From IMG/VR virus record IMGVR_UViG_3300042935_000263, positions 1 through 23,556 of that record: a DNA stretch of 23,556 bases, one strand, 5' to 3'. How positions within the stretch are numbered: position 1 is the stretch's first letter; each line of letters starts with the position of its first letter. Of this stretch, positions 5,813 through 23,396 are shown piece after piece. The stretch comes from a virus. The position numbers and the translations under genes were made by a program. The notes below the pieces were generated by a model that searched no databases, was not told where the DNA came from, and was given only the letters and a program-made list of their open reading frames with translations.

Positions 5813-6078
5813 TAGACTCCTCCGCCATCCCAAGCTGGAATTGGCGTATAAATTGTGCTAGGAATACCGCCGTCGATATTCCACAAGCCGCCTTCAATGT
5901 CTGAAAAACTTATTCTCTTAGATGTCTTACCATCGTGTACGTGATCTCCAGGGCTAGCCTGATTTGGGTTAGCTCCTAGTGTATGATGAGTAGCAAGCGG
6001 GTTTTCGTCAACATCAGAGTTAAGGTGAAGTTCCTTAACTTCCTGATATGTTAGTTGTGTACCGCCTGAAAAACCCAT
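5812..6078 (-). CDS. Small HxH-motif tail protein, first gene of the leftward unit
   Basis: 88 residues from the ATG at 6078 (MGFSGGTQLTYQEVKELHL...). It contains ATHHTLG-NPNQASPGDHVHDG (about 48-69), a motif seen in many phage tail and fibre proteins. Its HxH pairs can bind metal in trimeric tail tips and fibres, but that is not shown here. The C-terminus ends IPAWDGGGV. The frame extends to 6135 through an ATG at 6129 and a GTG at 6135, but those starts lie inside the divergent gene. The -10-like TGGTATTCTA just upstream places transcription start at 6078-6079, so the ATG at 6078 would be leaderless. The stop overlaps the collagen-like fibre start (TAATG). A connector between tail tip and fibres is a reasonable guess. 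Confidence 0.68.
   Translation of the reverse strand: MGFSGGTQLTYQEVKELHLNSDVDENPLATHHTLGANPNQASPGDHVHDGKTSKRISFSDIEGGLWNIDGGIPSTIYTPIPAWDGGGV
6018..6040. promoter_or_regulatory. Perfect 8-bp inverted repeat at the divergent control region
   Basis: AGTTAAGG (6018-6025), a 7-nt spacer, and CCTTAACT (6033-6040). It lies inside the 5' part of the leftward gene and directly upstream of a weak extended -10 (TGATATGTT, 6044-6052) facing right. It could be an operator, or a chance palindrome in coding sequence. Confidence 0.35.
6044..6052 (+). promoter_or_regulatory. Candidate rightward promoter (extended -10)
   Basis: TGATATGTT has the TGn extension and a TAnnnT-like core, and would start transcription near 6059, about 50 nt before the nuclease gene. 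There is no convincing -35 element at 17 bp. It overlaps leftward coding sequence. It is supported mainly by the need for a rightward promoter at the divergence point. Confidence 0.25.
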
Positions 6079-6084
6079 AGCTAA

Positions 6085-6094
6085 TAGAATACCA
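6085..6094 (-). promoter_or_regulatory. Extended -10 promoter of the leftward tail/lysis unit
   Basis: On the minus strand this reads TGGTATTCTA, i.e. TGn followed by TATTCT. The hexamer ends 7 nt before the ATG at 6078, so the predicted start of transcription is at or 1 nt before the start codon and the message would be leaderless, as is common in actinobacteria. The identical 10-mer precedes the capsid gene at 11807-11816. TTTACT occurs 20-21 nt upstream of the TATTCT core in both places and may be part of a shared promoter. Confidence 0.5.
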
Positions 6095-6097
6095 GAG

Positions 6098-6103
6098 AAG
6101 GAG
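6098..6103 (+). promoter_or_regulatory. Ribosome binding site that fixes a TTG start
   Basis: AAGGAG sits 6 nt before the TTG at 6110, an ideal spacing. No in-frame ATG or GTG exists nearby, so this site decides the start of the nuclease gene. Confidence 0.7.
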
Positions 6104-6109
6104 ACACTC

Positions 6110-6541
6110 TTGAGTAAATCTAAAGACATTGGCACACGTGCCGAGACCGCCGTTAGAAACTACCTTTTATCAGTTGGCTATGATCCAATGACAGCTCACC
6201 GTAACGTATTGAAAGGATCAGCCGATGAAGGAGACGTTTGGCTACGTGAAAGCTATGGCCTTATTGTATTTGAGATCAAAGGCGGGAAGTCTGCCAAAGA
6301 CGCCAGCCACGAACAAATAAGGAAATGGTATGAAGAAGCCGAAATTGAAAAAGCTAACGCTGATGGCAAGTTTGGTTTTCTTGTTACTCAGCGTGCTGGT
6401 GTTGGGTACCCCAGAGCCGGCGAATGGTGGGCCTACGCAAAGCTTAGCGATCTCATCTACCTAAGAACCAACATAGGCACCAATAGCGACACGCTAGTTC
6501 GCTTAACCCTTAAAGAGCTTGTATCATTAATTCATGGCTAA
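6110..6541 (+). CDS. PD-(D/E)XK nuclease, Holliday-junction-resolvase-like
   Basis: 143 residues with a TTG start. The N-terminus SKSKDIGTRAETAVRNYL carries the helix with Glu12 typical of resolvase-like nucleases. Asp42 (in EGDVW) and Glu55-x-Lys57 (in IVFEIKGG) complete a PD-(D/E)XK active site on the expected beta strands. Residues 77-91 (EAEIEKANADGKFGF) match the conserved helix and strand of small actinophage resolvase-like proteins. It probably cuts branched DNA, resolving replication or recombination intermediates so that the terminase can package a linear template. Its stop overlaps the terL start by 8 nt, which supports a packaging role. An HJ resolvase, VRR-type nuclease and other fold members cannot be separated by eye. 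Confidence 0.75.
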   Translation: MSKSKDIGTRAETAVRNYLLSVGYDPMTAHRNVLKGSADEGDVWLRESYGLIVFEIKGGKSAKDASHEQIRKWYEEAEIEKANADGKFGFLVTQRAGVGYPRAGEWWAYAKLSDLIYLRTNIGTNSDTLVRLTLKELVSLIHG

Positions 6542-8547: not shown

Positions 8548-8713
8548 AGACCCAATAGCTTATCAAATGATTCAGGCTGCTACACCGGAGCCAATCAAAG
8601 ATGTAGGCTATAATGGACCATATGTATCGGGCGAAGAATACGAACAACTTCTGGCCGACGAAAAGCGTATGAAAGACCTCTGGAAAGATTTGGATATAGA
8701 CAATGGCAACTGA
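8360..8713 (+). CDS. Small membrane-anchored protein overlapping its upstream neighbour
   Basis: 117 residues. Residues about 4-24 are a strongly hydrophobic Leu/Ala/Ser helix, a single N-terminal membrane anchor. They are followed by a helical, Gln/Glu/Leu-rich stretch (30-62, likely coiled coil) and a soluble end with YNGPYVSGEEYEQLL. The start lies inside the preceding gene, in another frame, with a 188-nt overlap. AAAGGAG 10 nt before the ATG and the protein-like C-terminal part beyond the overlap argue that it is real. The stop overlaps the portal start by 11 nt. A membrane anchor with coiled coil could fit a lysis accessory or spanin-like protein, or a superinfection or DNA-entry factor; none can be chosen from sequence alone. 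Confidence 0.68.
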   Translation: MSTLYLASLSLALLASLALVSLFNLKVIKPTLESLQTSLELQIQSAREQQRLLSQALNLLASKDPIAYQMIQAATPEPIKDVGYNGPYVSGEEYEQLLADEKRMKDLWKDLDIDNGN

Positions 8714-10865
8714 CGAACTCGGCAAGGAAATTACCGTAGCCGATCAAGCCCTCTACCAAAAGGATCCAGCCATGCCTGGTGAACTTGTCGAAGACAGTAT
8801 CCTTAATAAGTTTAAAAAAGACCAAGACTCAAAGAAGCTAGTAGCTTGGATCAAGGCTGAATACGAGAAGTGCAAGTCAGCCCGTAAGAACGAAGAGATC
8901 GACTGGTACCTACAGATTGCTTTTTACAACGGTAAGCAGTACCACAACTGGGCAACGATCAATGGTAAAGAAGGCCTTATGGAGGAGCCTAACCCGGCTA
9001 ACCTTCCACGTATCACCATCAACCGTATTGAGCCAGTAATCCGTACAGAGATCGCTAAAACAACATCTCAGCAACCATCTGCAGCAGTAGTCCCAGCATC
9101 TAACGATGAGGAAGATCTACTAAGCGCTACTGCCGGAGAACAAGTCTGGCAGGCCGTATACGACAAAAACAACTTCCAGACTGAGATTTTGCAGAAGGCA
9201 GAGTTCTGGCGTGCGGTATGCGGTAACGGATTCATCAAATGCTTCTGGGATCCAACCATTAAGCACTATGAAAATCAGACACTTGTAGACCCGATGACTG
9301 GAAACAAGACAGTACGCAGGGCAGTTTCTACTACTGGTGACGTCAAGTTTGAAGTAGTCTCTCCATTTCACTTGTTTATCCCAGATCTATCTCAAGAGGA
9401 CCTAGAACAACAGCCTTATATTTTCAACGTGTACACAAAGAGCGAGCAGTGGGTAAAGCAGAACTTTAAATCTGTACTGCCTAAAGACTTTGTTCCAACA
9501 AAGGTAAACGCAAGCGAGATTCAGGATGCAGCAATTATGGATCTTCGTGGCGTTGACACCTCTAAGCCAGATTCAGTATTGGTTATCGAGGCTTGGATCA
9601 AGCCAAACCAGGTTTCCTACCTACCTCAGGGTGGCCTTGTAACAATCGTAGACAGCGAGATAGTTCAGTTGTCCAATACTGGTATTCCTTACCACCACGG
9701 ACAATACCCTTTTGCTCACCTACACGGCATCCAGAACGGAAAGTTCTACCGTCGGTCAGTTATAAAGACGCTAATCCCGTTGCAGCGTGAGCTTAACCGT
9801 ACAAGATCACAGATCATTCATGCAAAGAACTTGATGGCTAAGCCACAGATGATGTATGCAGAAGGTTCTGTAGACCCAAAGAAGATCACAGCTCGCGCTG
9901 GTATCTGGATCCCAGTACGCCCAGGATTCTCTATGCCTACCCCTGTTCCTATTCAGCCACTACCTAACTACGTGCTTCAGGAAGTTACCCAGCTTCAGCA
10001 GGACTTTGAGGATATCTCAGGTCAGCATCAGATTAGTCGTGGAGAATCCGGATCTGGAGTTACAGCAGCAACTGCCTTGGCTTACCTTGGCGAGCGCGAT
10101 GACGCTTACCTAACAACAATCTTTAACAGCATTGAAGCTGGTGTCGAAAAGATAGCACGCCAAGCTCTATCGCTGTTTGTTCAGTACGTAGAAGAAAAAC
10201 GTATGATCAAAATCACCGGCTCTGATGGATCATTTGATGCCATGATGCTTTCCGGATCTGACGTTGCCTCTGGTACCGACATTAAGATTGAGTCAGGCTC
10301 TGCTCTTCCAACTAGCAAGTCTGCTCGCCAGGCCCTAGTTACCGAATGGATGAAGATGGGCTTCATTAGCCCAGAGGACGGTCTACGTATCCTAGAGATG
10401 GGTATGCTCAAGCAGTACTACAACGTAATCAAGATTGACGAAAACTCTGCTCAGCGCGAGAACTTGATGATGAAGAAGATTACTGATGAAATTGCACAGC
10501 AGGTTGAACAGGCTTGGAACGCTGGAGCCGAGAATGGCGACATAGACAAGGTTGACCCAACAACTGGTGCTCCACTTCAGGTACCACCTGTTGTTCCTGT
10601 TAACGGCTGGGATAACCACGCAGTTCACATTGAAATCCACAACAGGTTCCGTAAGAGCCAGGCGTACGAGATCTTGCCAGATATTGTTAAGAAAGAATTC
10701 CAGAAGCACATCTCAATCCACGAGAACGCTTTGATGTTAAAGCAACAGCAAGAAGCTATACTTAGTGGTGTTGCGCCAGAACAGCCAGCTGATGGAATGC
10801 AGCAAGAACAATCACCAGGAACACAGCCGGAACAATCTGGCTTCACTCAAGAACAGTTAGGATAA
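8703..10865 (+). CDS. Portal protein, P22-like
   Basis: 720 residues, close to the size of P22-type portals. Recognisable stretches are INRIEPVIRTEIAKTTSQQP (106-125), the region AFWRAVCGNGFIKCFWDP-like around 168-185, the RELNRTRSQIIHAKN helix (about 363-377) and SGSGVTAATALAYLGERDD (about 447-465). Together these are the portal wing, stem and clip layout of podovirus-type portals. It forms the dodecameric ring through which terminase fills the head and to which the adaptor binds. The C-terminus (about 677-720) is Gln/Glu/Pro-rich and probably disordered. The ATG overlaps the preceding gene; the ribosome binding site is weak. The next gene, scaffold, follows 7 nt later, as is usual. Confidence 0.92.
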   Translation: MATDELGKEITVADQALYQKDPAMPGELVEDSILNKFKKDQDSKKLVAWIKAEYEKCKSARKNEEIDWYLQIAFYNGKQYHNWATINGKEGLMEEPNPANLPRITINRIEPVIRTEIAKTTSQQPSAAVVPASNDEEDLLSATAGEQVWQAVYDKNNFQTEILQKAEFWRAVCGNGFIKCFWDPTIKHYENQTLVDPMTGNKTVRRAVSTTGDVKFEVVSPFHLFIPDLSQEDLEQQPYIFNVYTKSEQWVKQNFKSVLPKDFVPTKVNASEIQDAAIMDLRGVDTSKPDSVLVIEAWIKPNQVSYLPQGGLVTIVDSEIVQLSNTGIPYHHGQYPFAHLHGIQNGKFYRRSVIKTLIPLQRELNRTRSQIIHAKNLMAKPQMMYAEGSVDPKKITARAGIWIPVRPGFSMPTPVPIQPLPNYVLQEVTQLQQDFEDISGQHQISRGESGSGVTAATALAYLGERDDAYLTTIFNSIEAGVEKIARQALSLFVQYVEEKRMIKITGSDGSFDAMMLSGSDVASGTDIKIESGSALPTSKSARQALVTEWMKMGFISPEDGLRILEMGMLKQYYNVIKIDENSAQRENLMMKKITDEIAQQVEQAWNAGAENGDIDKVDPTTGAPLQVPPVVPVNGWDNHAVHIEIHNRFRKSQAYEILPDIVKKEFQKHISIHENALMLKQQQEAILSGVAPEQPADGMQQEQSPGTQPEQSGFTQEQLG

Positions 10866-11901: not shown

Positions 11902-13134
11902 ATGGCAGGAACCTCAATTCTGACCTTTGCGTCAGAAGCAATTAAGTTGGTTTATGGAGATCTACACGAGCAGCTAAGGGACAAAAACCCAGCGCTACAG
12001 CTCATCGAGTCTTCATCAGCTAACATTACACAAAACGGTAAAGAAGTAATCTTCGATACTCACATTGGACGTAACCAGGGAATCGGTGCACGTGGCGTTC
12101 GCGAGAAGCTACCTGTTGCTGGAGCCCAGAAGTACAAGCAAGCTCACCTATACCTTACAAACCTATACGGTTCTATTGAGGTTGACGGACAGCTATTCGA
12201 GCAGGCATCCGAGAACTACCAAGCATTCATCAACGTTGTTGACAACGAAATCAAGGGCCTAAGAAAAGACCTAGCTAACGATCTAAACCGTCAGGTTTAC
12301 GGAGATGGCTCAGGTAAGTTGGCAGTAGTTACTGCACAGCCTTCTTCTTCTACTTTGACCGTTGACACCGACCACTACCTACAGGTCGGAATGACCTTTG
12401 ACGTGGTTGACCCAACAACTGGTGTAAAGCAGCAGTCAGGTGCAGCAAGCTCACTAGAAATCACAGCAATTAACGAAACAACCAACGTAATTACAGTGTC
12501 CGGTACCCTAGGTACCTTCAGCACTAACATCAGCGCTGGTGACTTCATCGTTCGTTCTTCCAACGGAGTAAACTCCTTCGGTAAGGAATGGACTGGTCTA
12601 GGTGCAATCGTTAAGGCAACCGGATCTCTACACGACATCGACCCAGCTAGCTACCCAGTATGGGCAGCAACAGAGGTGGCTCTTGGAACTCCAGGAACCG
12701 CAACTGGCGCTCTAACTGAGCTAGCTTTGATCAACCTAGTACAAAAGGTTGACAAGCAGGGTGGAGATGTAGACGTAATTCTTGCATCCCCAGGCGTTTT
12801 CAACGCTTACTGGGACTTGCTACAGGGTCTACGTCAGTTCACCAACGGTGCAACCCTTGAGGGTGGTCAGCGTGCATTCTCATTCGATGCAGTTGGCAAG
12901 CCAATCAAGTTCGTATCGGACTACGCAGCTCCACCAAGCACCTTGTACGCGCTAAGCTCGAAAGAGATTGTGGTTAACCGCAAGCGCGACTGGGCATGGA
13001 TGGACCGCGATGGTTCTATGTGGTCACGTGTCGCAGACACCGACGCATACGAAGCACGTTACTACCAGTACTCTCAGCTAGGTACCTACCGCAGAAACGC
13101 ACACGCGGTACTATCTAACATCACCGAGAAGTAA
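11902..13134 (+). CDS. Major capsid protein, HK97 fold
   Basis: 410 residues. The N-terminus (ILTFASEAIKLVYGDLHEQL), KKEVIF-type strand, GARGVREKLPVAG loop, LYLTNLYGSIEVDG strand and NEIKGLRKDLANDLNRQVYG spine helix (about 115-134) fit an HK97-fold coat, probably of the SU10-like/podovirus coat group. Residues about 138-219 look like a beta-rich inserted domain (repeated TVDTD--V-GMTFDVVD and GDFIVRSS) that may decorate the capsomer surface. The C-terminal P-domain ends with RYYQYSQLGTYRRNAHAVLSNI. GGAG sits 8 nt before the ATG. Leucine codons are dominated by CTA, as in a highly expressed gene tuned to its host. It has its own putative promoter and is flanked by hairpins. Confidence 0.92.
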   Translation: MAGTSILTFASEAIKLVYGDLHEQLRDKNPALQLIESSSANITQNGKEVIFDTHIGRNQGIGARGVREKLPVAGAQKYKQAHLYLTNLYGSIEVDGQLFEQASENYQAFINVVDNEIKGLRKDLANDLNRQVYGDGSGKLAVVTAQPSSSTLTVDTDHYLQVGMTFDVVDPTTGVKQQSGAASSLEITAINETTNVITVSGTLGTFSTNISAGDFIVRSSNGVNSFGKEWTGLGAIVKATGSLHDIDPASYPVWAATEVALGTPGTATGALTELALINLVQKVDKQGGDVDVILASPGVFNAYWDLLQGLRQFTNGATLEGGQRAFSFDAVGKPIKFVSDYAAPPSTLYALSSKEIVVNRKRDWAWMDRDGSMWSRVADTDAYEARYYQYSQLGTYRRNAHAVLSNITEK

Positions 13135-13216: not shown

Positions 13217-13639
13217 ATGAGCTATATAGAATTTGACAAAATAGACGGACTTTATTCACCGGATCACCGTAGAGTGGCTGAGGTTATCAGCGATCTTTTC
13301 CCTACAGTGAGATTGATCCGAGTAGACTCGCTACACCCAAGTTTTGACCCAGAACGACCATTTGCGCTAATAGATGAGCCACACATGCTACCGCCGTATG
13401 TAATCAGATATATGCGGGAGTCCGAAGTAGACCAGAGACTTGTTGCTTGGCTTGTAGAAAACAACATGCACGACGCGAACTCAAAGGTCAATAGACTCCA
13501 GATTTTAGAAATGGCAGAAGCCGCCATGAAAGCCAAGCGTGAGCTAGAATGGATGGAGGAAAAGAAGGACATGATGAAGTCCGTTATAAGTTCCCGTAAG
13601 AACGAATACCGCCACAATGGAAAGGTAATTAGGAAGTAA
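13217..13639 (+). CDS. Hypothetical protein between capsid and adaptor
   Basis: 140 residues. The N-terminal half is mixed alpha/beta (YIEFDKIDGLYSPDHRRVAEVI, then FALIDEPHMLPPYVIRYMRES). The C-terminal half is a long, highly charged helix, probably a coiled coil (about 95-125, ILEMAEAAMKAKRELEWMEEKK), with a basic end. AGGAG lies 6 nt before the ATG, and the stop overlaps the adaptor start (TAATG), so it is co-translated with the connector genes. Position suggests a head completion or head-tail joining role, but no family is recognised. There is no signal peptide, membrane segment or Cys cluster. Confidence 0.72.
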   Translation: MSYIEFDKIDGLYSPDHRRVAEVISDLFPTVRLIRVDSLHPSFDPERPFALIDEPHMLPPYVIRYMRESEVDQRLVAWLVENNMHDANSKVNRLQILEMAEAAMKAKRELEWMEEKKDMMKSVISSRKNEYRHNGKVIRK

Positions 13640-14301
13640 TGCCAGCAGAACTATTTACTAAAACTGCTCTAGATGTCATAACCCGCGTCAAGACTCAGTT
13701 CGGAGACTCCTCCGGAGCTCAGATCACAGATAGCGCTATTCTGCGTTGGATCAACGACGGCCAGCAGGAAATCGTAAACAACAACGCAATCCTAAAAGAC
13801 CTTAAGTACTCAAACGTTGTAAAGGGCCAAGCTGAGTACAGCTTCCCAACTGACAAGGTTCAGTACATCGAGGCTGTTTCAGTAAACAACAGGCCAGTAA
13901 GAAACCTTTCTGCTCAGGGAGCTAGAGAGTACATTCTTCAGCAGGATCCTCAGGCAGAGCAAAAAGCAGACATGCCTCTTATTTGGTACGAACGTGCCGG
14001 CATTATTACTTTTTACCCAGTTCCAGACAAGGATTACACAAACGGTCTAAAGCTTGAATATGTCAAGATGCCTAATGATGTAACCACCTCAGGAAGCGCT
14101 TTATCTATTCCAGACCGCTACCTAAACGAGTTAGTTAATTACTGCATGATTCAAGCTCTTGAGTTTGATGAAAACTACGCAGCTGCGCAGGCAAAGGCTG
14201 GACAGTTCAGAGAAGGCCTGGACCGCATGTACCTAAAGGAGAACCTGTCACAGAACGATCTGTACGAGCAGATCCTACCGGACCCGCTGGATTATGTCTG
14301 A
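13639..14301 (+). CDS. Head-tail adaptor (SU10/T7 gp11-like)
   Basis: 220 residues. The pattern ALDVITRVKTQFGD--G-QITDSAILRWINDGQQEIV (about 10-47), then YSFPTDKVQYIEAVSVN (68-84), ITFYPVPDKDY (about 118-128) and LNELVNYCMIQALEFDENYAAA (about 154-175) is characteristic of podovirus adaptor proteins. These bind under the portal as a dodecamer and hold the nozzle. The gene is translationally coupled to its upstream neighbour (TAATG) and overlaps the nozzle gene by 8 nt. The order portal, coat, adaptor, nozzle matches SU10-like and other podovirus connectors and supports a short tail. Confidence 0.85.
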   Translation: MPAELFTKTALDVITRVKTQFGDSSGAQITDSAILRWINDGQQEIVNNNAILKDLKYSNVVKGQAEYSFPTDKVQYIEAVSVNNRPVRNLSAQGAREYILQQDPQAEQKADMPLIWYERAGIITFYPVPDKDYTNGLKLEYVKMPNDVTTSGSALSIPDRYLNELVNYCMIQALEFDENYAAAQAKAGQFREGLDRMYLKENLSQNDLYEQILPDPLDYV

Positions 14302-15931
14302 TATAGTACGGGAACGCTCTGCCGTATTAAACAACTTTTCTGGAGGTCTAAACAACTTCTGGGATCCTTCTGCAATCGCTGACACTGAAGTTCCATTCCT
14401 ACAGAACCTAGAGTTTTCACCAACTGGTGCCCTATCTTCTAGGCCTTCTATATTTGACACTGGTGCAACTTTTCCTGAAGCCAGCACTTTTTTTAATATT
14501 CTAGGTTTTTACGTAGCTCAAAACGGTACACGATCTGCAATAGTCGTGTCGCCTACAAAGACTTATATCTGGAACTTAGCTAGCACTTGGACTGAAATTT
14601 GGAGCCACCCGGCAGCAGACTTTGTGCAGTATCAAGACTACGTAATCATGTGCCGCATCAATGGAGCTGGTGCATACTGGAACGCAAACGGAGCGCCGGG
14701 CTATAACGCTGGTACTGGCCTATGGACTGTAACTGGATCAAACACCTCCACCATTGCAACCATGCCCGCCGGTAGAGGAATTGAGCTTCACCAAGAACGC
14801 CTATTCTTGTTTGGCCCACTAGACAGCGCTTCTCAGTCCATTATGTACTGGTCAAACATCTCGGGTGAAATAGATGGTTTCCCTGGCAAAGACTGGCGCT
14901 GGTGGGAGCCTGCAACTAACCTGGTATCTGTAAACGGCGGAGATGGCCAATGGATCACTGGACTTGTTGCTGGATATAACGACATTACTATTTTTAGAAA
15001 CGCTTCGACTTTTAGATACACATTTAGCGAACTCCCAGAAGAAGGTACGATTGCTAAGGTTCAAGACGGCATTGGAGCTGAGAACCAATACTGTATAGCG
15101 CGTTACGAAAACAGCCTTTTTGTACTCAGCGCTGATCAGCTGTACCTTTACAATAACGGAAACTTTACATCGCTTAATGACCAGAAGGTTAGGTTTGAAG
15201 AGCAGGCTGGATCAGGTAACTTAAAGATACGTTACTCGGTGTCGATACTTGGCTCTCGAGCAATAGTTAACTACGGTGGTTCTCTCTACGTTGCGCAGCT
15301 TAAAACGGGAACATGGTCTACTTGGAAGTCCAGTACTGAAATTGGTAGATTAGTGCAGCTCCCAACTCCTGCAAACAATATTGGTGAGGCTAAGTTTGCC
15401 TACGGTGTTTCAGCTAGCGCAACAGCGGCAAAGTGGAAGATGTACAAAATGCTTGATCACGTTCACGATGATAGCGATCCTGAAGCCATTGAGTGCATTC
15501 TGCGCACAAAGATTTACGACTTTAATTCGCCCACCGAATGGAAAAGAATGTACTGGTGGTCTGCAGATGTCATGGCGTCTAATACGGTAATTGCAAAAGC
15601 GTTCCCTGTGTCTCTTTCGGCTATTCAGACAAGCTGGGATGCAATGGATTATTCAGGACCTGGTGACACTGAGTATGTTGATTGGGATAAGGAGAACGAT
15701 ACTTGGGATAACCCTACAGCCACAGCGTCCTTTGCGTCTACCACAGTAGACACCGGCTATACCTATAAGCAGCGTCTAAGCCTCAAACTGGACCATGGAC
15801 TACGCTTCCGTAGGGTATACTTTGAATTGTACTTAACCTCTGACGGGACGGTTAATACGTCGCCAGCCCAGATATTTAGCCTTACGCCAATGATTGGAAC
15901 AAAGGCTAAGACTTCAGATAGGATAACTTAA
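14294..15931 (+). CDS. Tail nozzle / stabilisation protein (T7 gp12-like)
   Basis: 545 residues, beta-rich with many Trp, Tyr and Gly and no membrane segment. The N-terminus VLNNFSGGLNNFWDPSAI--TEVPFLQNLEFSPTGALSSRP is the classic start of podovirus nozzle/stabilisation proteins. Repeated blade-like strands follow (QYQDYVIMCRINGAGAYWN, GLVAGYNDITIFRNASTFRY, YENSLFVLSADQLYLYNNG), consistent with a beta-propeller platform. It would form the hexameric nozzle closing the adaptor channel. The C-terminal ~130 residues (about 410-545) look like a separate beta sandwich. The start overlaps the adaptor by 8 nt and the stop overlaps the next gene (TAATG). Confidence 0.82.
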   Translation: MSDIVRERSAVLNNFSGGLNNFWDPSAIADTEVPFLQNLEFSPTGALSSRPSIFDTGATFPEASTFFNILGFYVAQNGTRSAIVVSPTKTYIWNLASTWTEIWSHPAADFVQYQDYVIMCRINGAGAYWNANGAPGYNAGTGLWTVTGSNTSTIATMPAGRGIELHQERLFLFGPLDSASQSIMYWSNISGEIDGFPGKDWRWWEPATNLVSVNGGDGQWITGLVAGYNDITIFRNASTFRYTFSELPEEGTIAKVQDGIGAENQYCIARYENSLFVLSADQLYLYNNGNFTSLNDQKVRFEEQAGSGNLKIRYSVSILGSRAIVNYGGSLYVAQLKTGTWSTWKSSTEIGRLVQLPTPANNIGEAKFAYGVSASATAAKWKMYKMLDHVHDDSDPEAIECILRTKIYDFNSPTEWKRMYWWSADVMASNTVIAKAFPVSLSAIQTSWDAMDYSGPGDTEYVDWDKENDTWDNPTATASFASTTVDTGYTYKQRLSLKLDHGLRFRRVYFELYLTSDGTVNTSPAQIFSLTPMIGTKAKTSDRIT

Positions 15932-16143
15932 TGCCTAACACAGGTCAATATAATCCTTATGCTGCTGGTCAAAAGGTTTACGGATCAGGTCGTTACAACC
16001 CAACAATGGGTCCAGTTGACAAAGCCGGATACGCAGATAGAGACAGAAAAAGAAAAGTTAAGTTGAACGCTCTTAGGGCTAAAAACAAGGCAAGTCAAAA
16101 AGGCGCCTTTGCTAGCTCTAGTGTCTTAAGGTACGGTAAATAA
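15931..16143 (+). CDS. Small basic virion-associated hypothetical protein
   Basis: 70 residues, very basic and Gly/Tyr-rich. The N-terminus has GQYNPYAAG and GRYNPTMGPVDKAGYADRDR, followed by a Lys/Arg helix (about 36-59) and SSVLRYGK at the end. The GPVDP-GY--RDR style resembles short structural-region proteins of actinophages of unknown function. Basic charge could suit DNA or capsid binding. It is linked by TAATG overlaps to both neighbours, so it is stoichiometrically coupled to the nozzle and next gene. No known domain is recognised. Confidence 0.72.
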   Translation: MPNTGQYNPYAAGQKVYGSGRYNPTMGPVDKAGYADRDRKRKVKLNALRAKNKASQKGAFASSSVLRYGK

Positions 16144-16637
16144 TGGCAACCACAGGAAAGAAAGCTACTGGAGCTGATCCAATGGCTAGCATTCTTAACG
16201 ATCCTCTATACCAAGAGGCTTTAAAGTCTTACTACAACGAAACTTATGTTCCTGGTTTAACTCAGAGTCAGTACAACATTGGACAGGCAAGAAACAACCT
16301 AGTTCAAAACGACTTAACTCGTGGTCAGGCTCAGAAAGAAGCCATTCAAAGGACCGCTGGTGGGTACGCTTCTCGTGGTTTTAGATCTCCAAAGATGGTT
16401 ACAAAAGACTTTGCGGCCATTCAGGGTAAGACTGCAGCTCAGCGTAGAGAAGAGCAAAACGTTATAAACTCTCAGCAGAATCAGCAAGATGTTCTTTATG
16501 GAGCAAACCCAGACCTAGGTGGTTTCTTTAAAAACCCTGCTGGCTATGGATCAATTGGTGCTGGTGCTCGTCGTGCATCTTTGGCCGAGCTGTTTAGCTT
16601 AACTGACAAATACAAAGACCTAGGAATGGGATACTAA
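16143..16637 (+). CDS. Helical virion-associated hypothetical protein
   Basis: 164 residues. Gln/Asn/Ala-rich and mostly helical (about 18-115), with a Gly-rich turn (about 120-145, NPDLGGFFKNPAGYGS) and a final helix. It has no Cys, signal peptide or membrane segment. It starts at a TAATG overlap and ends 1 nt before the next gene, within the run leading to the giant internal protein. Composition (Gln, Ala, Arg) is similar to small internal/ejection proteins of podoviruses, which exit the head with DNA. This is inference from context and composition. Confidence 0.68.
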   Translation: MATTGKKATGADPMASILNDPLYQEALKSYYNETYVPGLTQSQYNIGQARNNLVQNDLTRGQAQKEAIQRTAGGYASRGFRSPKMVTKDFAAIQGKTAAQRREEQNVINSQQNQQDVLYGANPDLGGFFKNPAGYGSIGAGARRASLAELFSLTDKYKDLGMGY

Positions 16638-16638
16638 C

Positions 16639-17868
16639 ATGGCCAAAGCACCCTACAACCCAGCTGATCCATTTAGAATAGGGGAAACTCTACGCTCTAT
16701 TGGCATTAACCCAAACATTTTTGTTCCTCAGGGGACAAAGCCTAAGCTTCCTACGCCACAAACAAGAGGTAGAGGTTACTACCTAGGACCAGAAAGTATT
16801 GACGTTGGAGTAAAAAAACCAACACCCAAGGCTACTCCTGGTGTTGGTTTTGGCTCTGGCCCAAGAAGCGCTGACGGCCGCGATGGATGGGATGGTAAGC
16901 GAGGACCTAGTGCTACACCTACTCCTGATGGCGGTGGGGGCGGTGGCTATGGAGCGCCTGCAGGAGATCCAACTGCTGCAATGTTTGACCCATTATTTGA
17001 TTTAATTAGAAGGCAAAGAGAGGCAGCAAACAACCGCTATGCAGCAAACAAGGGTGAAATTGAAAACATATTTGGCCAGCTAAGCAGCGCACGTAGAAGT
17101 GACGTAGCTAGCACAACTACTGCATACAACGCTCTTTCAAGTGCCGCTGCATCGAGATCTAACGCCGTTAACACAAACATTGATGCATCTGAAGCTGCAA
17201 GGCTTTCAGGTAACGAGTCAGTTTTGCAAAGCCTAGGACTTGGCGATGTTTCTTCTGCTCGTCTTGGTGACGTAGCTTCAGAGCAAGCAGCAACTGCAAA
17301 GAATGTTGAAGGTCTTAACTCTGCAAACTGGCAAGGATTGCTCAGCGCAATGGGAGCAAACGCTCAGGACATTATTTCTCAGGATGTTCAGAGCTATGGA
17401 TACCAGCAAGGAAGAGACGTGCAGGATCTTCAGCGCAGTCTTCAGAACTACCAGCAGGGCTTGGACACTCAGGAATTCCAAACTACAGCTAAAGCTGCTG
17501 AGGCTAAATTCCAGTACGGCGAATCTCAGAAAGCCGCACAAGCTTCTGCTGCAGCAGCATTTGCTAATGCAAAAAACGCAGCCGATAAGTTTGCTGCTGA
17601 GCAAGCTCAAGAACTACTTAAGAATGCTGACCCGCTTACTAGAGCAATTGCTCGCGGAACACAGGCAGGGTACCCTAACTTCAACCCTACAAAAGTTGAG
17701 CAGGCCTACTTTAACTGGATGTCTACTCGCGGAACTAGCCCAACCTCAGCCGGATTGACACAGTGGAACAAAGTAGCGGCTACTGCCGATGCTACAAAGT
17801 ATGCGGGTGGTCAGCTGTCTGAACGGGAAATGGGCGCACTTATCGAAGCCATCGGTAGTAGCTTTTAA
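16639..17868 (+). CDS. Ala/Gln-rich internal (ejection) protein candidate
   Basis: 409 residues. Residues 1-115 are Pro/Gly-rich and extended (FVPQGTKPKLPTP, GGGGGGYGAP). Residues about 120-330 are a long Ala/Gln/Ser helical region with coiled-coil character (RQREAANNRYAANKGEIENI, LQRSLQNYQQGLDTQEFQ, KAAQASAAAAFANAKNAADK). The last ~75 residues form a compact domain ending GGQLSEREMGALIEAIGSSF. This arrangement is typical of podovirus internal core proteins injected ahead of the DNA. Its position just before the 1836-residue protein supports that. No enzymatic motif is visible. The ATG follows the previous stop by 1 nt. Confidence 0.7.
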   Translation: MAKAPYNPADPFRIGETLRSIGINPNIFVPQGTKPKLPTPQTRGRGYYLGPESIDVGVKKPTPKATPGVGFGSGPRSADGRDGWDGKRGPSATPTPDGGGGGGYGAPAGDPTAAMFDPLFDLIRRQREAANNRYAANKGEIENIFGQLSSARRSDVASTTTAYNALSSAAASRSNAVNTNIDASEAARLSGNESVLQSLGLGDVSSARLGDVASEQAATAKNVEGLNSANWQGLLSAMGANAQDIISQDVQSYGYQQGRDVQDLQRSLQNYQQGLDTQEFQTTAKAAEAKFQYGESQKAAQASAAAAFANAKNAADKFAAEQAQELLKNADPLTRAIARGTQAGYPNFNPTKVEQAYFNWMSTRGTSPTSAGLTQWNKVAATADATKYAGGQLSEREMGALIEAIGSSF

Positions 17869-17885: not shown

Positions 17886-20800
17886 ATGGCCCTAAACCCT
17901 GAGATACTCAAAGCGCTTGCTGGCGCTTCCGGAAAAACATCCGGTGCTTTTAACGCCGAAGCAGCTAATGCCGGCATGGCTACCAATCAAAAAACGGGGG
18001 CATGGAACCTTGGCCAGTCAATCATCGACATTCTTTCAACTGGTGGATACGCGTCTGCTGGTATTACTAGAAAGGTAGGAGAAAATGTTGCCTCTATCCA
18101 GCGTGGCGATCTTGGTGGCCTTCTTGATCTTCTTAATCCGCTATCTGTTCCCGGGGCAGCGGTAAAGGGTGTTCAGGAACGCAGAACTTACAGTGAAAAC
18201 TTACGCGATCTTGGCGTAGACAAAAACGTTTCAACATGGTTAGGTCTTGCGCTTGACATTGGTCTAGACCCAACAACTTACATTACTGGCGGAACTATTG
18301 CTGGTGTAAAAGGTGCTGCCGCCGGAGCTCGTTTGGCTTCTGCTGCAAATAAAGCAAATGCTGTAGTTGTTCGCTCTGCAGCTGAAGCTGCTGCGATGAA
18401 TTTGCCGGATGTTTCCCGCGCTTTTGTTCCTGTTGTTGAGCCGCTTACTCAAGGACAAAAACTTGGAAACTATTTAACTGGCGTTCTTCGTGGTTATGAT
18501 TTTAAACGCGCTGAGCGTGCTGCCGACATAAGCAATAAGAAAATAAATAAAGAGGCTCGTAAATACGCAAAAGAAACCGGTGACGTCACCTATGCTATTG
18601 GTGCAGTAAAAGCTGGAGGAAACCTAGGTAAGGCTGCTACTAGTGCAATTAAGAACGAGACTGCTTTAATAAACAGAGATAAGTTTATGGAGGCTGTTGC
18701 AAAAAGTCCTGTCTTGCAAGAGCGATACGCTAAGCGTTTTGAAAAACTTCAGGCTCAAACTAAAACTTTGAAAGATACCCGTTTTATCGATCCAAAAACC
18801 GCAAAAAAGGTTAATGCTGTCGAAGCCAGCGAAGCCGCTAAAGTTGCCCAACTTGAAGAGGCTGCACAGATCACTCCACCACCCGCAGCTGCAATTGAAG
18901 AAATTTCGCCTGCTGTTCCAGGCAGCGTGCGGGACGTGCAAGAAACTGTTGTTGCGGCTAATAGCCTTAAAAGCGAAGAATTGCTTAATGCAATAAACGC
19001 TGACAAAAAAGCCCGTGCTGCGGTAACTCGTCAGGCAAACAAGATTAAGAGTTCTTATTCTCAAATAGAAACCGAAATTCTTGATTACGCAAACAAGGTT
19101 GTTGATCCCGCAACTGGAAAAAAACTTGCCGAATCCGCGGGCACAAAAGAAGAACTTTTAGATTACATAGCAGAAGGCTTAGGTACAAATAAATTAAAAC
19201 CTACTGCAAATAGACTTGAAAGATTTGCTAAAGCAATCGGTACCACTAACGATCCAGCGCAAACAAAAGTAGAGCTAGTAAGAAAGACCTTAATTAGCCT
19301 GTCAAAGGATCTTAAAAAACTAGGAGATCTAGAGGAAAAAGCTGGAGCATACGCCAAGTTCCTTGAGAGCGGCGGTATAAATGCAACTACTGAAAACATT
19401 GCTGCTGCAATTGGAATAGTAAACTCTGCCGAAGTGGGCAAGCTTGTCGAAGAAGCGATAGACCTTGAGGGTGAGGTCAGCAAAAACATCTCAGACATTA
19501 TTGATGAGGTTGCAACCGGTACACCTGGTACAAGCGCAAAAACAACCGAAGAACTTGCTGACGACGCCACAAACTTAAGACTAAGCTCCGCTGAAGAGCT
19601 CATCGGCTATTTGGACTTTATTGAAAAAAGCGGATCTACAAGCGCTGACTTCAGAATTGAATCTATTCTTAGAAACGCCATTGAGTATGGGCCGTATGCA
19701 AAATTAGAAAAATTTGCGAAAAGAAAAGGTCAGTCCGTAAAAGAGTTAATTTGGGATGCGATAAACGGCGACAAGAGTGTCATTAACGACCCTAACTTCT
19801 CCATATCCCCAGAGGCAGTAAAACTTGATTTCTTTAGTTCCGAGGCGCGTTTTTCCGTACAAGACCTTATTGTCAATAAAGAACGAAAGCTTGTAGCAGG
19901 AAAGAGTAGGACGCCAGCAGAGGCGATTGCGGAAGAATCTGCGTTGTCTGGTATTCAAGAAAGCACACTTAGATTACTAGGCGTGCAAGTTGGTACTGAA
20001 GAAAACTTATTAATGCAACTTCGCAGGGGTGGCGTTAAGAAAATTGGCGAAAAGCTAAGTAAGAATTTTGTACCACAAAGACTTCACCTAACACTCTCCG
20101 ACATATTGCAATCAGCAATTAGGTCAGGCAAGGGAGACGCTTTTGCTGCTATTCGCTACCCTGGCGGTAAGTATCAAAACATTATGCCTAGCAACATTGA
20201 GTATGCATTTTTAACCTTAACAAGATACAAATCTCTTGGCCAGGAAATTAAACCAGGCACTGAAGCTTGGGAAGCAATTAAAAAGAGCCTTAATGAAAAC
20301 TACAAACTTCCTGATGCAAAAGATGGCGTAATTGTCAACAAAGATGTTGACGATTTCTTTATCCCAGCACCACATCTTAACCCTAAGCCGATAGAGGTTG
20401 ACGGTAAAACAATAACTCTTAAAAAAATACCAGATCTAGATAAAAAAATTGATAATGTAATTCAAGTAATGGCCGACACCTCAGATGAGCTGTTGTCAAT
20501 TCATGGGGCAAGAGCTGCTTCCGTTATGGCCAATGAGGCGTCTGATGCAATGCAAAAGGGTAAGGAGTTTTTCCTTGAGTTATTTGAACTGCTTGATGCT
20601 AGAAGCGGATTCCTAAAAAATCTTCCCGACCTAGTTAAAGCATCTCCCGGAAACCCCACGAAGTTCCTTGGGCCAGGTGTCCCAGCAAAAAACGTCAGTG
20701 GATTAAACAAAATCACTGGTCTTATGAAATCGCTTATTTTGTCATCTGCAAAAAGCGCTGGTAAATTTAAAGACCCTAAAGTGGCTGACGAAATTAAAGA

Positions 20801-23396
20801 ACTTATTATTAACATGTTTATGAAAAACCTTGTTAATGAAAACGACAAAAAGTTAATAGCAAAAATTGGGGCTAACGCGGCTGCGCAAGTAGCTTCGGAG
20901 GTAAGACACCAGTTTGACGAAGTTTACAAGGCTGTTAAAAAAGAAATTAACATGACCGATGCAATGGGTGCTACTAAGCGAACCGTTAAAGTAACACCTG
21001 CTCAAAAGGCAAAAGGTAAAGAAGCTAGATTTAGGTCTACCAAAGAAGAGTATAAAAAAGCAGAGTCACTTGTTCCGCAAACCTTAAAAGCGCAAGAACC
21101 AAGACTTGCAGAAGAAATTGCAAATCCTGCACCACTGGGAGATGAGGATAGCAACATATTCACCAACCTAGCATCCGGTGACGAGCTAGAAGATATTTTA
21201 ACTGTTGCTATAGGCGAGGTCACTGACAATAGGCTGAGTGCCCGCTACATGACTGCAATGAGTGGTCGGTTTGGAATTGGTCTTGGCGGAAAAACTATTA
21301 TTGGTGGTGTTGAATATAAAAACATTACATCAAGCACACATTACTTTACTCTTTCGTTAAAGCGCTTGGCTGAAAAGCACGGAGGCGATATAGCTAAAAT
21401 TGACGACGCCTTTAAGCTTGTGCAGCAATGGGGTAAAGAAATGTACCAAAACTTTGAAGCTGGAAGATCCGAGATTCCATTTTCTCAGTGGTTACAGACT
21501 GCAAAGACCGGCAATGTTGATCTAGAAATTGCAGACGATCTATCTTTTATGGTCGACGCGTTATTTGGTGTAGACCCTTCCGATGTGCCAGTGGGTGTGT
21601 TTAGTCAGAGCTTTAAGCAGCCTTATTTTGCTGATGAACTAAACAGAATTTTTTCGGTTAAGGGATTCTTTGATATTGGTGAAGAGCAAGCATTTAAGTT
21701 ACCAGGCGACATTGGTCCAATGGGCGTTAAATATTCTTGGGCTAGGGCTGACGTTGACACCCTTAAACAAGGGGCTAAGGGTAAGCCGTTTAACTCTCTT
21801 ACATTCTTAGCTAACTACGCACAATCCTTGCACGCAGTGCAGACTCGAATTGGTATTGGTCAGTCCTACAGTTCCGCTATGGGTAGGACTCTAAAAGAAC
21901 TTAAAGATGAAGGACTCACCCCTTCTGAAATAAGTAAGGGTTTTATAAAAGTTGATCCCGAAGATGAATTTGGTAAGTTCCTTGATCCAGAGATGCTTTT
22001 TGATGCTAGTGAACTTGAAAGAATGAAGTACATTAAGAAGTATCTTACGTACGAGCGTTCGTTTAGTAATGAGACTGTACAAGAAGTAGTCAACATGGTT
22101 GACATGATAACTAGCATTCTAAAGGCGTCTCAAACAACTTGGAGAATGGGACACCACGTAACAACCTCTGTTGGTGAAGGTCTTATGAACACCCTTGCTG
22201 GTGTAACCCCTAAGTATTACAGCAATGCTTTCGAGATTCTCACTAAGTACGATTCAACAACATACAAGCCAGGCGACAATCCTTTTAAGCAATACATGGA
22301 TTATGCTTCGCCAAAGGGTATGCAACTTAAATACGATCAGGTCGGCACAATCAGCTTTGTTAACTCTACAACAGGCTCTGTTACCCTTGCTCCAGAAAGC
22401 GCAGTCATGGCTCTTGCAGATGAGCTTGGCATAATTATCCGAGGAGGTGCCGGTGCGGTAGAAGATATTGACATGCGCGGAGTGGGCGCACTTTCTGGTG
22501 GCTTTGTTGGTGGAGTAAGTAAAGTAAACGACAAGCTTTCTGGCATCAGCGCAGCCCGTGATAATTTCTTCCGCTTGGCGCACTTTATTAAAGAGATTGA
22601 AAAGGGTGGCGTCTACGGATCGCTAGAAGAAGCTGCGGTTGCAGCTGCACAGGTAGTAACGACTTATCACCCAACAGTTTATGGATTGTCTGCTTTTGAG
22701 CGTAAGTACATGCGTCGCGCTGTTTACTTCTACACTTGGCAGCGAATTGCGGCAACTAAGGTATTCCAACTAATTGTGCAACAGCCAGGCACCATTACAA
22801 TTCCATCTAAGATCCAATATGCGTTCTCAGAGGCAAATGGTTTCAACCCAGAGTCATTTGGAGATCCATGGGATCCTAATGGCATATACGCTTCATGGAA
22901 CACAGGCAACCTATACGGTCCACAGTTCCAGGGTCCAAATGGTCCAGGCGACGCATGGGGCTTTGGGCCTGCTGTACCACAGCTAGACATCCTAAACAGC
23001 TTGTTCAGCGGCTACACCGTACAGCCTGGCCAGACGGGCCTAGACGCCGTTACAAGGGGCACACAGAACCTTGCAGGCCAGAACCTATCGCCAATGCCTA
23101 AGTGGTTTGCTGAGCTCACCACGGGCAATAGGGTGGGTACTGGTGGCGACATCAGGAACCCACTAGAATATGCTATTGATCAGGTTGGTGGTATTAACAC
23201 AATATCCAAGATAACTGGGCTAGGTCAGGAGCCAGAAAAGACTCTTACTCCTACTGAACAGGCCGAAAAGAAGACTAGACTATTGATCAACTGGTTACTT
23301 GGTCAGAAGCTGCAGGATTACTCAACTTCACAGACACAGAAACAGTGGTCTTTTGATCAAAGCAAAGCACTAAAGAACATGTTCCCAACACCATAA
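17886..23396 (+). CDS. Giant internal/ejection virion protein
   Basis: 1836 residues in one uninterrupted frame, with AGGA 7-8 nt before the ATG. The N-terminal part has WLGLALDIGLDPTTYITGG (118-136), a motif shared by large phage internal proteins, followed by Ala/Gly-rich and long charged helical regions (about 200-700) and a mixed middle. Near the C-terminus are WRMGHHVTTS...GLMNTLAGV (1419-1440), DNFFRLAHFIKEIEKGG (from 1559) and E1605...FYTWQRI (1615-1621). This run of motifs recurs in giant virion proteins of many aquatic phages. It probably leaves the head during infection and helps DNA cross the envelope. No transglycosylase, protease or polymerase signature was seen. The last ~150 residues are Gly/Pro/Trp-rich and then helical. 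A scaffold-like core role is also possible. Confidence 0.82.
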   Translation: MALNPEILKALAGASGKTSGAFNAEAANAGMATNQKTGAWNLGQSIIDILSTGGYASAGITRKVGENVASIQRGDLGGLLDLLNPLSVPGAAVKGVQERRTYSENLRDLGVDKNVSTWLGLALDIGLDPTTYITGGTIAGVKGAAAGARLASAANKANAVVVRSAAEAAAMNLPDVSRAFVPVVEPLTQGQKLGNYLTGVLRGYDFKRAERAADISNKKINKEARKYAKETGDVTYAIGAVKAGGNLGKAATSAIKNETALINRDKFMEAVAKSPVLQERYAKRFEKLQAQTKTLKDTRFIDPKTAKKVNAVEASEAAKVAQLEEAAQITPPPAAAIEEISPAVPGSVRDVQETVVAANSLKSEELLNAINADKKARAAVTRQANKIKSSYSQIETEILDYANKVVDPATGKKLAESAGTKEELLDYIAEGLGTNKLKPTANRLERFAKAIGTTNDPAQTKVELVRKTLISLSKDLKKLGDLEEKAGAYAKFLESGGINATTENIAAAIGIVNSAEVGKLVEEAIDLEGEVSKNISDIIDEVATGTPGTSAKTTEELADDATNLRLSSAEELIGYLDFIEKSGSTSADFRIESILRNAIEYGPYAKLEKFAKRKGQSVKELIWDAINGDKSVINDPNFSISPEAVKLDFFSSEARFSVQDLIVNKERKLVAGKSRTPAEAIAEESALSGIQESTLRLLGVQVGTEENLLMQLRRGGVKKIGEKLSKNFVPQRLHLTLSDILQSAIRSGKGDAFAAIRYPGGKYQNIMPSNIEYAFLTLTRYKSLGQEIKPGTEAWEAIKKSLNENYKLPDAKDGVIVNKDVDDFFIPAPHLNPKPIEVDGKTITLKKIPDLDKKIDNVIQVMADTSDELLSIHGARAASVMANEASDAMQKGKEFFLELFELLDARSGFLKNLPDLVKASPGNPTKFLGPGVPAKNVSGLNKITGLMKSLILSSAKSAGKFKDPKVADEIKELIINMFMKNLVNENDKKLIAKIGANAAAQVASEVRHQFDEVYKAVKKEINMTDAMGATKRTVKVTPAQKAKGKEARFRSTKEEYKKAESLVPQTLKAQEPRLAEEIANPAPLGDEDSNIFTNLASGDELEDILTVAIGEVTDNRLSARYMTAMSGRFGIGLGGKTIIGGVEYKNITSSTHYFTLSLKRLAEKHGGDIAKIDDAFKLVQQWGKEMYQNFEAGRSEIPFSQWLQTAKTGNVDLEIADDLSFMVDALFGVDPSDVPVGVFSQSFKQPYFADELNRIFSVKGFFDIGEEQAFKLPGDIGPMGVKYSWARADVDTLKQGAKGKPFNSLTFLANYAQSLHAVQTRIGIGQSYSSAMGRTLKELKDEGLTPSEISKGFIKVDPEDEFGKFLDPEMLFDASELERMKYIKKYLTYERSFSNETVQEVVNMVDMITSILKASQTTWRMGHHVTTSVGEGLMNTLAGVTPKYYSNAFEILTKYDSTTYKPGDNPFKQYMDYASPKGMQLKYDQVGTISFVNSTTGSVTLAPESAVMALADELGIIIRGGAGAVEDIDMRGVGALSGGFVGGVSKVNDKLSGISAARDNFFRLAHFIKEIEKGGVYGSLEEAAVAAAQVVTTYHPTVYGLSAFERKYMRRAVYFYTWQRIAATKVFQLIVQQPGTITIPSKIQYAFSEANGFNPESFGDPWDPNGIYASWNTGNLYGPQFQGPNGPGDAWGFGPAVPQLDILNSLFSGYTVQPGQTGLDAVTRGTQNLAGQNLSPMPKWFAELTTGNRVGTGGDIRNPLEYAIDQVGGINTISKITGLGQEPEKTLTPTEQAEKKTRLLINWLLGQKLQDYSTSQTQKQWSFDQSKALKNMFPTP

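Follow-up and report, generated by a model that had tools for sequence, protein, structure and literature searches.

A virus record from IMG/VR (IMGVR_UViG_3300042935_000263, positions 1 to 23,556), probably a fragment, devotes 23% of its length to a single gene, raising the question of what a viral protein of this size does. The record, analysed over all of its 23,556 bases and referred to as the window, also carries a P22/SU10-type portal, an SU10-type capsid and adaptor, and a terminase. The gene is an open reading frame (ORF) of 1836 codons with an ATG start on the plus strand (17886..23396; 5511 of 23,556 bases), in agreement with an earlier note on this DNA, made from the sequence alone, which had given it 1836 residues and almost a quarter of the window. 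Its product matches the PHROGs profile phrog_36598 at 1.4e-44, and the large protein has so far been listed under that family, of unknown function, and as hypothetical proteins in Arthrobacter phage Jasmine and its relatives. Our analysis indicates that it is most probably the largest ejection (internal virion, pre-ejectosome) protein of a podovirus whose host is probably an actinobacterium, taking the place of gp16 in T7 and P22. The earlier note had likewise called the protein internal, likely ejected and possibly channel-forming; this reading now draws support from the syntenic adaptor, nozzle and ejection-type genes and from homology of a C-terminal module to a chain of the cyanophage A4 pre-ejectosome, and from these we infer the ejection itself.

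A family search using a nine-sequence alignment as query gave 76 viral loci (the best 80 of 116 confirmed candidates) and 18 genome loci. From 104 ORFs, 62 representatives were chosen greedily at 60% identity, with the window protein replacing L002; they cover 58 loci, four of which gave two ORFs, and five of the ORFs are cut by contig ends. The profile phrog_36598 matches 50 of the 62 (25/26 and 25/36). A profile search of the ORFs revealed two conserved modules in most members, at profile positions ~35-190 and ~1300-1835, and the most distant members keep only positions ~137-170 and ~1400-1660. In the window protein these correspond to an N-terminal module (N-module) of residues ~40-200 (18003..18485, plus strand) and a C-terminal module (C-module) of residues ~1300-1806 (21783..23303, plus strand), separated by a predicted helical middle (residues ~201-1299; 18486..21782, plus strand). 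The family motifs noticed earlier near both ends are present and conserved. Around the LDPTTY motif (residues 127-132; 18264..18281, plus strand), Asp-124 is invariant in 26 sequences and Gly-120, Leu-127, Asp-128 and Pro-129 are at least 90% conserved, while Tyr and Trp of the FYTW motif (residues 1615-1618; 22728..22739, plus strand) are invariant in 52 aligned C-modules. Landmarks were surveyed in 71 complete ORFs, with 17 duplicate or near-duplicate loci left out, and both were called in 49. The LDP landmark lies at residue 91-210 (standard deviation, sd, 21) and the PFYTW landmark 199-284 residues from the C-terminal end (sd 14), whereas the spacing between them ranges from 464 to 1707 residues (sd 396); a landmark was misplaced in five of the 49 (L051 and L065 on the N side; L078, L009 and L084 on the C side), which affects both extremes of the C-tail range and neither extreme of the spacing. 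Relatives, whose comparison the earlier note had proposed, therefore share both modules but differ greatly in the length of the middle. In four cases (L030, L031/L071, L032 and L057) the two modules lie on two adjacent or overlapping ORFs, with split points that differ within the variable middle; the L030 split is possibly a frameshift.

The first lead to the function of the C-module was PDB entry 9K3A, found by a phmmer match of L082 (E 0.01) and by the profile of alignment A4 (E 0.062). The 9K3A chain sequence is gp26 of Anabaena phage A-4L. Comparison of the C-module with a four-member cyanophage gp26 profile by hhalign gave a probability of 98.5% (E 2.9e-15, 428 columns), and two other family alignments scored 98.7 and 97.4%; reversed controls reached at most 0.3%, and no block-shuffled target (15 per alignment, 45 in all) exceeded 2.7%. 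A further alignment, A7, scored 0.2% against gp26. AlphaFold2 modelled residues 1100-1836 with a mean predicted local distance difference test (pLDDT) score of 82.4 and a predicted TM-score of 0.83. In a structural search of this model with VIA-align, the best row was 9k3a_A, "Cyanophage A4 pre-ejectosome with C1 symmetry" (Z 4.8, root-mean-square deviation 4.9, 139 residues), pairing model residues 320-525 with chain residues 510-745. In the alignment of sequence profiles, 320 falls on 510 and 520 on 746; the two registers are therefore equal at the start and about six residues apart at the end. The 12 VIA rows also include chain A of the phiM1 ejectosome (Z 3.1) and the A4 pre-ejectosome 9k2v (Z 2.1), with unrelated proteins between them, and a search of the predicted viral structures in BFVD matched an A-4L tail protein at E 1.8e-6 (TM-score 0.50 by query). 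Because sequence profile and fold give nearly the same register, we argue that the two proteins are linked, and by sequence profile the C-module is homologous to A-4L gp26. An unrelated large helical protein with a chance resemblance to ejection proteins would also give low Z scores, as long helical proteins match widely. The collapse of the reversed and shuffled controls against 98.5% over 428 columns, together with the nearly shared register, largely refutes this explanation, and we consider it scarcely credible.

Several observations weigh against assignment as an ejection protein. As a single sequence, A-4L gp26 scored only 72.1 and 49.4%, and the HMMER C-profile scores it at E 0.08 only. 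A search of PDB sequences with the C-module profile (A5) missed 9K3A; in the same database the window protein gave no match, and the A3, A4 and A5 profiles gave only matches at E ≥ 0.028. The Z of 4.8 alone lies under the safe level of the tool, and a Foldseek search of the C-module model against the PDB gave nothing at E ≤ 0.001, with 9K3A not among the 50 matches listed. Single sequences of T7 gp15 and gp16 and SU10 gp23 and gp24 did not match by hhalign (best 8.9%; P22 was not searched), and T7 gp16 scored at most 3.8% against four profiles. A simple hydropathy scan of the window protein found no clear transmembrane segment, while putative ones are reported for T7 gp16; a single Kyte-Doolittle segment, scoring 1.34 at residue 1507, was rejected as support for transmembrane modules. 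Finally, a passage of the review PMC8954989 reports phi29-like podoviruses of Gram-positive hosts as having no ejection proteins, and the same passage includes Mycobacteria among the hosts; the window phage and its relatives are not phi29-like.

The N-module also has a possible counterpart in A-4L. The gene before gp26, gp27, carries WAGFGLDTILDP, and a four-member gp27 profile scored 15.4% against the N-module at the LDP motif, where 20 shuffles gave at most 0.2% and the cyanophage neighbours gp26, gp28 and gp29 at most 0.1%. This weak match suggests that A-4L gp27 and gp26 may be a split form of the fused protein. The A-4L gp26 gene (L106, 6859-10203; phrog_19395) bears the name "tail fiber protein; host specificity" in both RefSeq and PHROGs, in conflict with the PDB title "pre-ejectosome"; the fibre name is a probable misannotation carried across cyanophages. 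Taken at face value, that name would make the window protein a static internal core or tail component, such as a tail fibre, that is never ejected. The pre-ejectosome title of 9K3A argues against this, as does a separate fibre-type gene in the window. A further objection is that the large gene follows the adaptor in 47 of the 48 contigs that have one, and we regard a static role as improbable.

The gene neighbourhood supports assignment as an ejection protein. The structural block of the window runs in the order portal, scaffold, capsid, SU10-type adaptor, nozzle, then proteins of 70, 164, 409 and 1836 residues, with the big gene last, as it does in Jasmine. It comprises, on the plus strand, the P22/SU10-type portal (8703..10865; PF16510, PF23899), the major capsid protein (11902..13134; phrog_14242, PF17236), the adaptor (13639..14301; PF24175, 8.7e-29), a nozzle-type tail protein homologous to Jasmine gene 25 (14294..15931; phrog_33544, phrog_3287; "nozzle" by its position), a conserved 70-residue protein (15931..16143; blastp 41-55% to syntenic genes of Jasmine, Shocker and DS1), a probable small ejection protein of 164 residues (16143..16637), assigned by its conserved position and a size of 164-247 residues across phages, and a probable second ejection protein of 409 residues (16639..17868), conserved in position and size. 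The 409-residue protein has no PHROG or Pfam match, and neither it nor the 164-residue protein gave a blastp or phmmer match to its syntenic counterparts in Jasmine, Shocker and DS1. Elsewhere in the window, on the minus strand (3659-5833), lies a gene for a collagen-like tail protein that has an Mtd N-terminal domain (PF01391, PF18454). Ejection proteins are described as diverging fast, with gp15-type homologs mostly matched by size and synteny (PMC8954989).

A tblastn search of 50,697 phage records matched 11, from phages of Arthrobacter (the Jasmine group), Microbacterium (Shocker) and Cellulosimicrobium (DS1). Homologs of the window adaptor, nozzle and 70-residue protein are common to Jasmine, Shocker and DS1, and portal, capsid and scaffold have matches in Jasmine and Shocker (for DS1 the comparison covered only a part of the record). 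The window, Jasmine, Brad, Shocker and DS1 all have the adaptor and nozzle followed by proteins of 59-86, 164-247, 409-441 and 1743-1836 residues, and Casserole has the same order from the nozzle onward. Jasmine is described as a podovirus by morphology (PMC5513430). More widely, the SU10 adaptor family PF24175 is present in 48 of 50 related contigs, and in 47 of the 48 it lies 3576-6183 nt upstream of the large ORF on the same strand; the exception, L057, has it at the opposite end of the record. Between the two, most contigs hold a nozzle-sized ORF, an ORF of ~160-390 codons and one of ~335-575 codons. Of 15 related contigs, 12 carry a WhiB gene, those of the close relatives L003 and L004 among them, and among 14 control genomes only that of the actinobacterium C. 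glutamicum matched in the WhiB search. The host of the window phage is therefore probably an actinobacterium; a freshwater host is a guess.

Family members are also found in cellular genomes. Two Paenibacillus isolate genomes (L100, L102) hold members together with podovirus-type structural genes, with the SU10 adaptor PF24175 at 9.6e-17 in L102 and a nozzle-type match in L100. Shorter members, of 937-1066 residues, occur in contigs of metagenome-assembled genomes (MAGs; L088-L091, L093-L096 and L098), several of them labelled as candidate-phylum bacteria (Parcubacteria, Magasanikbacteria, Nomurabacteria, Yonathbacteria, Vogelbacteria). In L088, a 1.5-Mb contig, an SU10-type adaptor is present and the gene immediately upstream matches a transglycosylase family at its N-terminus (phrog_4602, 3.2e-12). 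These short members are candidates for podovirus-like proviruses, or for binning errors.

The middle of the protein had been described in the earlier note as charged, helical, less conserved, more A/T-rich and less codon-biased, and on the last two grounds as a possible variable cargo region. All of these properties except the weaker codon bias were borne out. The share of Lys, Arg, Asp and Glu is 27-29% in codons 151-1200, 22-23% in codons 1201-1500 and 15-19% at the ends, and the predicted models are helical. GC content drops from 0.48-0.51 near the ends (codons 1-150 and 1501-1800) to 0.39-0.44 in codons 151-1500, with 0.42 in the last 36 codons of the gene, and a GC scan in windows gave the same picture. 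This fall accompanies the charged helical sequence and is about equal in size at codon positions 1 and 2 (GC12; ends 0.514, middle 0.455) and at position 3 (GC3; 0.381 and 0.327). In relative codon adaptation index (CAI), calculated against the other genes of the window, the ends score 0.711 and the middle 0.693. When the boundary was shifted circularly, the observed difference was reached in 305 of 1835 shifts for GC3, 402 for CAI and 295 for GC12. The shifts do not single out the boundary, and the claim of weaker codon bias is unsupported: the GC dip is real, and codon use is near uniform along the gene.

Conservation, which the note had proposed to check alongside codon use, is not uniform. 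Three alignments all give a U-shaped identity profile for the gene. In an alignment of five close relatives, one of them identical to the window, mean identity reaches 0.95-0.99 at the ends (residues 1-200 and 1601-1836), against 0.76-0.91 in residues 201-1300; in a 26-member alignment it is 0.30-0.47 at the ends and 0.14-0.23 in the middle. The ratio of nonsynonymous to synonymous substitution rates (dN/dS) is 0.056-0.239 in eight 150-codon blocks spanning codons 151-1350 (six pairs from four sequences), and these low values argue that the middle is under constraint, not relaxed. In six pairs, dS is 0.26-0.60 in codons 1-150 and 1651-1800 (17886-18335 and 22836-23285) vs 0.52-2.04 in codons 151-1350; recombination at conserved ends or an extra synonymous constraint would give such low values at the ends. 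The middle is thus variable, as the note had proposed, but its codon-bias argument for cargo falls.

No enzyme family was found in the window protein in Pfam, PHROGs or NCBIfam, in line with the earlier note, which had recognised none, and its two Pfam matches, DUF643 and SAP_new25, lie below the cut-off. Among the 62 representative ORFs, searched against Pfam and PHROGs, Pfam matches were weak and confined to single members (5 and 14 families listed), the best being YPEB_N (E 0.0002), DUF7739 (0.00026) and CBM_15 (0.00029), and NCBIfam gave one weak match for 26 ORFs. Prediction of structure by segments, also proposed earlier, succeeded for the C-module and did less well for the rest: the AlphaFold2 model of residues 1-1110 has a mean pLDDT of 58, with residues 1-205 under 50, so we make no claim on the fold of the N-module. 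Residues ~500-1030 (19383..20975, plus strand) are largely folded in the model, with pLDDT mostly 70-97 per 10-residue block and dips to 42-62. For this model Foldseek gave no PDB match at E ≤ 0.001, and the top VIA rows were common helical arrangements (ESX-3, 8.6; a designed cage, 8.0); VIA and Foldseek against the PDB thus gave no fold match for the middle beyond such arrangements. Chain E of the phiM1 ejectosome (Z 6.2, rank 16) and N4 mini-vRNAP (Z 5.3) lay within the helical noise and were rejected.

A second link also came from the C-module. Its model gave 44 BFVD matches at E ≤ 0.001 (TM-score by query 0.16-0.67), led by proteins of GurgleFerb and Shocker and one unnamed protein, with TR020 also present. 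Fifteen of the 44 are named large polyvalent proteins (best 8.6e-11), and single matches are named Zeta toxin, ART-PolyVal, LT_GEWL and type I methylase. LPD38 is among the phage-only domains in the polyvalent-protein paper of Iyer et al. The Pfam hidden Markov model (HMM) of LPD38 (PF18857) matched none of 50 related records at E ≤ 1 and is absent from the families listed for the 62 ORFs; in 299 genomes of one phylum it was found in 9. Using ORF fragments of 757-870 residues from seven proteins over the Pfam cut-off, profile comparison with the C-module scored 94.4% (A6, E 8.4e-8), 96.1% (A4, E 2.8e-9) and 64.1% (A3), and the same fragments scored 85.0% against the A-4L gp26 family. Controls were 0.8% for the reversed profile and at most 1.1% for 20 shuffles, and the fragments did not exceed 2.5% when compared with the N-module or with three further cyanophage families. 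On these profile scores the C-module is remotely related to the C-terminal part of LPD38 proteins.

This relationship bears on a different account of the protein, in which it is a polyvalent effector carrier: the middle (residues ~200-1300) would be cargo directed at the host or at host defences, with the ends serving as a frame for packaging and ejection. Such a role is compatible with that of an ejection protein. It would fit the similarity to LPD38 proteins and the polyvalent, enzyme and toxin names among the BFVD matches. It would also fit podovirus JC1, where LPD38 is described as ending a protein with LT-like, YtxK, HepA-type and LPD3 matches (PMC9144972), as well as the widely varying length of the middle and its largely folded part. 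One distant family member, L086 (ORF 2490-6218, 1243 residues, from a MAG labelled UBP3), has a sub-threshold Pfam RelA_SpoT match at residues 352-459 (E 0.0073; 17 bits, below the cut-off of 27; traced by scanning nine ORFs), lying between its N-module (residues 16-230) and C-module matches (from 798). The stretch contains GYRNIH and VEIQIG, which we take to resemble RelA/SpoT synthetase motifs. It had no match among PDB sequences and matched only unnamed PHROG families (E ≥ 0.014), and no RelA_SpoT match occurs in 26 other records; as possible effector cargo it is a lead, not a result. The lack of an enzyme match in the window protein, the weak single-member matches in the 62 ORFs and the finding of only common helical arrangements in fold searches with the middle all speak against the effector carrier, which we judge unlikely.

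Assignment as an ejection protein suggests the following pathway, in which we infer packaging, ejection, the conduit and the role of the middle. Within the capsid, the large protein would sit on the portal as a component of a pre-ejectosome. Once the phage adsorbs, the protein would be threaded out with its 409- and 164-residue partners and then refold, forming the envelope or cytoplasmic end of a DNA conduit. The C-module (residues ~1300-1806) may be an assembly domain common to A-4L gp26 and LPD38 proteins, and the N-module with LDPTTY a second fixed element, encoded by a separate gene from the C-module in some phages. By analogy with T7 gp16-C, the long helical middle would be a constrained, exchangeable spacer or ring domain. 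We further propose, at a little under an even chance, that the C-module, A-4L gp26 and the LPD38 C-terminal domain are one ejectosome-assembly domain, present in podoviruses whose hosts are actinobacteria, cyanobacteria, Bacillota and, judging by MAG labels, candidate-phylum bacteria, and that polyvalent proteins are ejectosome subunits with exchangeable cargo between the N-module and this domain. If so, the RelA/SpoT-like stretch of L086 would be an example of such cargo, and the actinophage version a giant ejectosome subunit acting across a monoderm envelope. Arthrobacter and Paenibacillus lack an outer membrane, and the two-membrane model does not apply to phages of actinobacteria and other such hosts. 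Since one chain of a pre-ejectosome has been solved, a C-terminal domain in common with it would offer a sequence handle on ejectosomes in phages of actinobacteria and of other hosts, and prediction and homology together suggest a testable job for LPD38. A literature search, with subscription papers outside its reach, found, among the papers listed, no paper linking LPD38 with ejection and none tying the large-protein family to 9K3A and LPD38.

Among known systems, the closest counterparts are the Jasmine gene 29 product and its homologs in Brad, Casserole, Shocker and DS1, hypothetical proteins that share conserved ends, gene order and 22-24% full-length identity with the window protein; the IMG/VR copy of Jasmine aligns with it over residues 44-1832 by tblastn. 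They differ in a middle that is hardly alignable, tblastn against the phage collection aligning only 14-29% of the query at its C-terminal end, and in what follows: an endolysin gene in those phages, while the window stops 160 bases past the large gene. LPD38 proteins share the alignment of the C-module with the C-terminal part of seven of them, and differ in that the LPD38 HMM is silent in related records and that no enzyme cargo was detected in the window protein. In SU10, gp24 (L104, 25674-30095) is a 163-kDa hypothetical protein for which 116 peptides are reported from a polyethylene glycol-concentrated phage preparation (PMC4281155); its 8.9% similarity to the N-module is at chance level. 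With T7 gp14/gp15/gp16 and P22 gp7/gp20/gp16, as presented in PMC8954989, the window shares a small-medium-large order with a large last protein. The same source describes T7 gp16 as having a periplasmic transglycosylase and putative membrane regions at 243-410 and 1119-1290, with residues 411-1118 between them in a cytoplasmic toroid. The window protein differs in having no transglycosylase match in Pfam or PHROGs and no clear transmembrane segment (simple scan; T7 gp16 was not scanned), and T7 gp15 and gp16, compared as single sequences, show no similarity to it; we therefore describe it as working like gp16 and related to A-4L gp26, not as a gp16. The fixed-variable-fixed plan of its family is similar in outline to that of T7 gp16. 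A-4L, a phage with a host of another phylum, uses two genes (1717 and 1114 residues) where the window has one, while its gp26 is homologous to the C-module over ~430 columns and its gp27 weakly matches the N-module.

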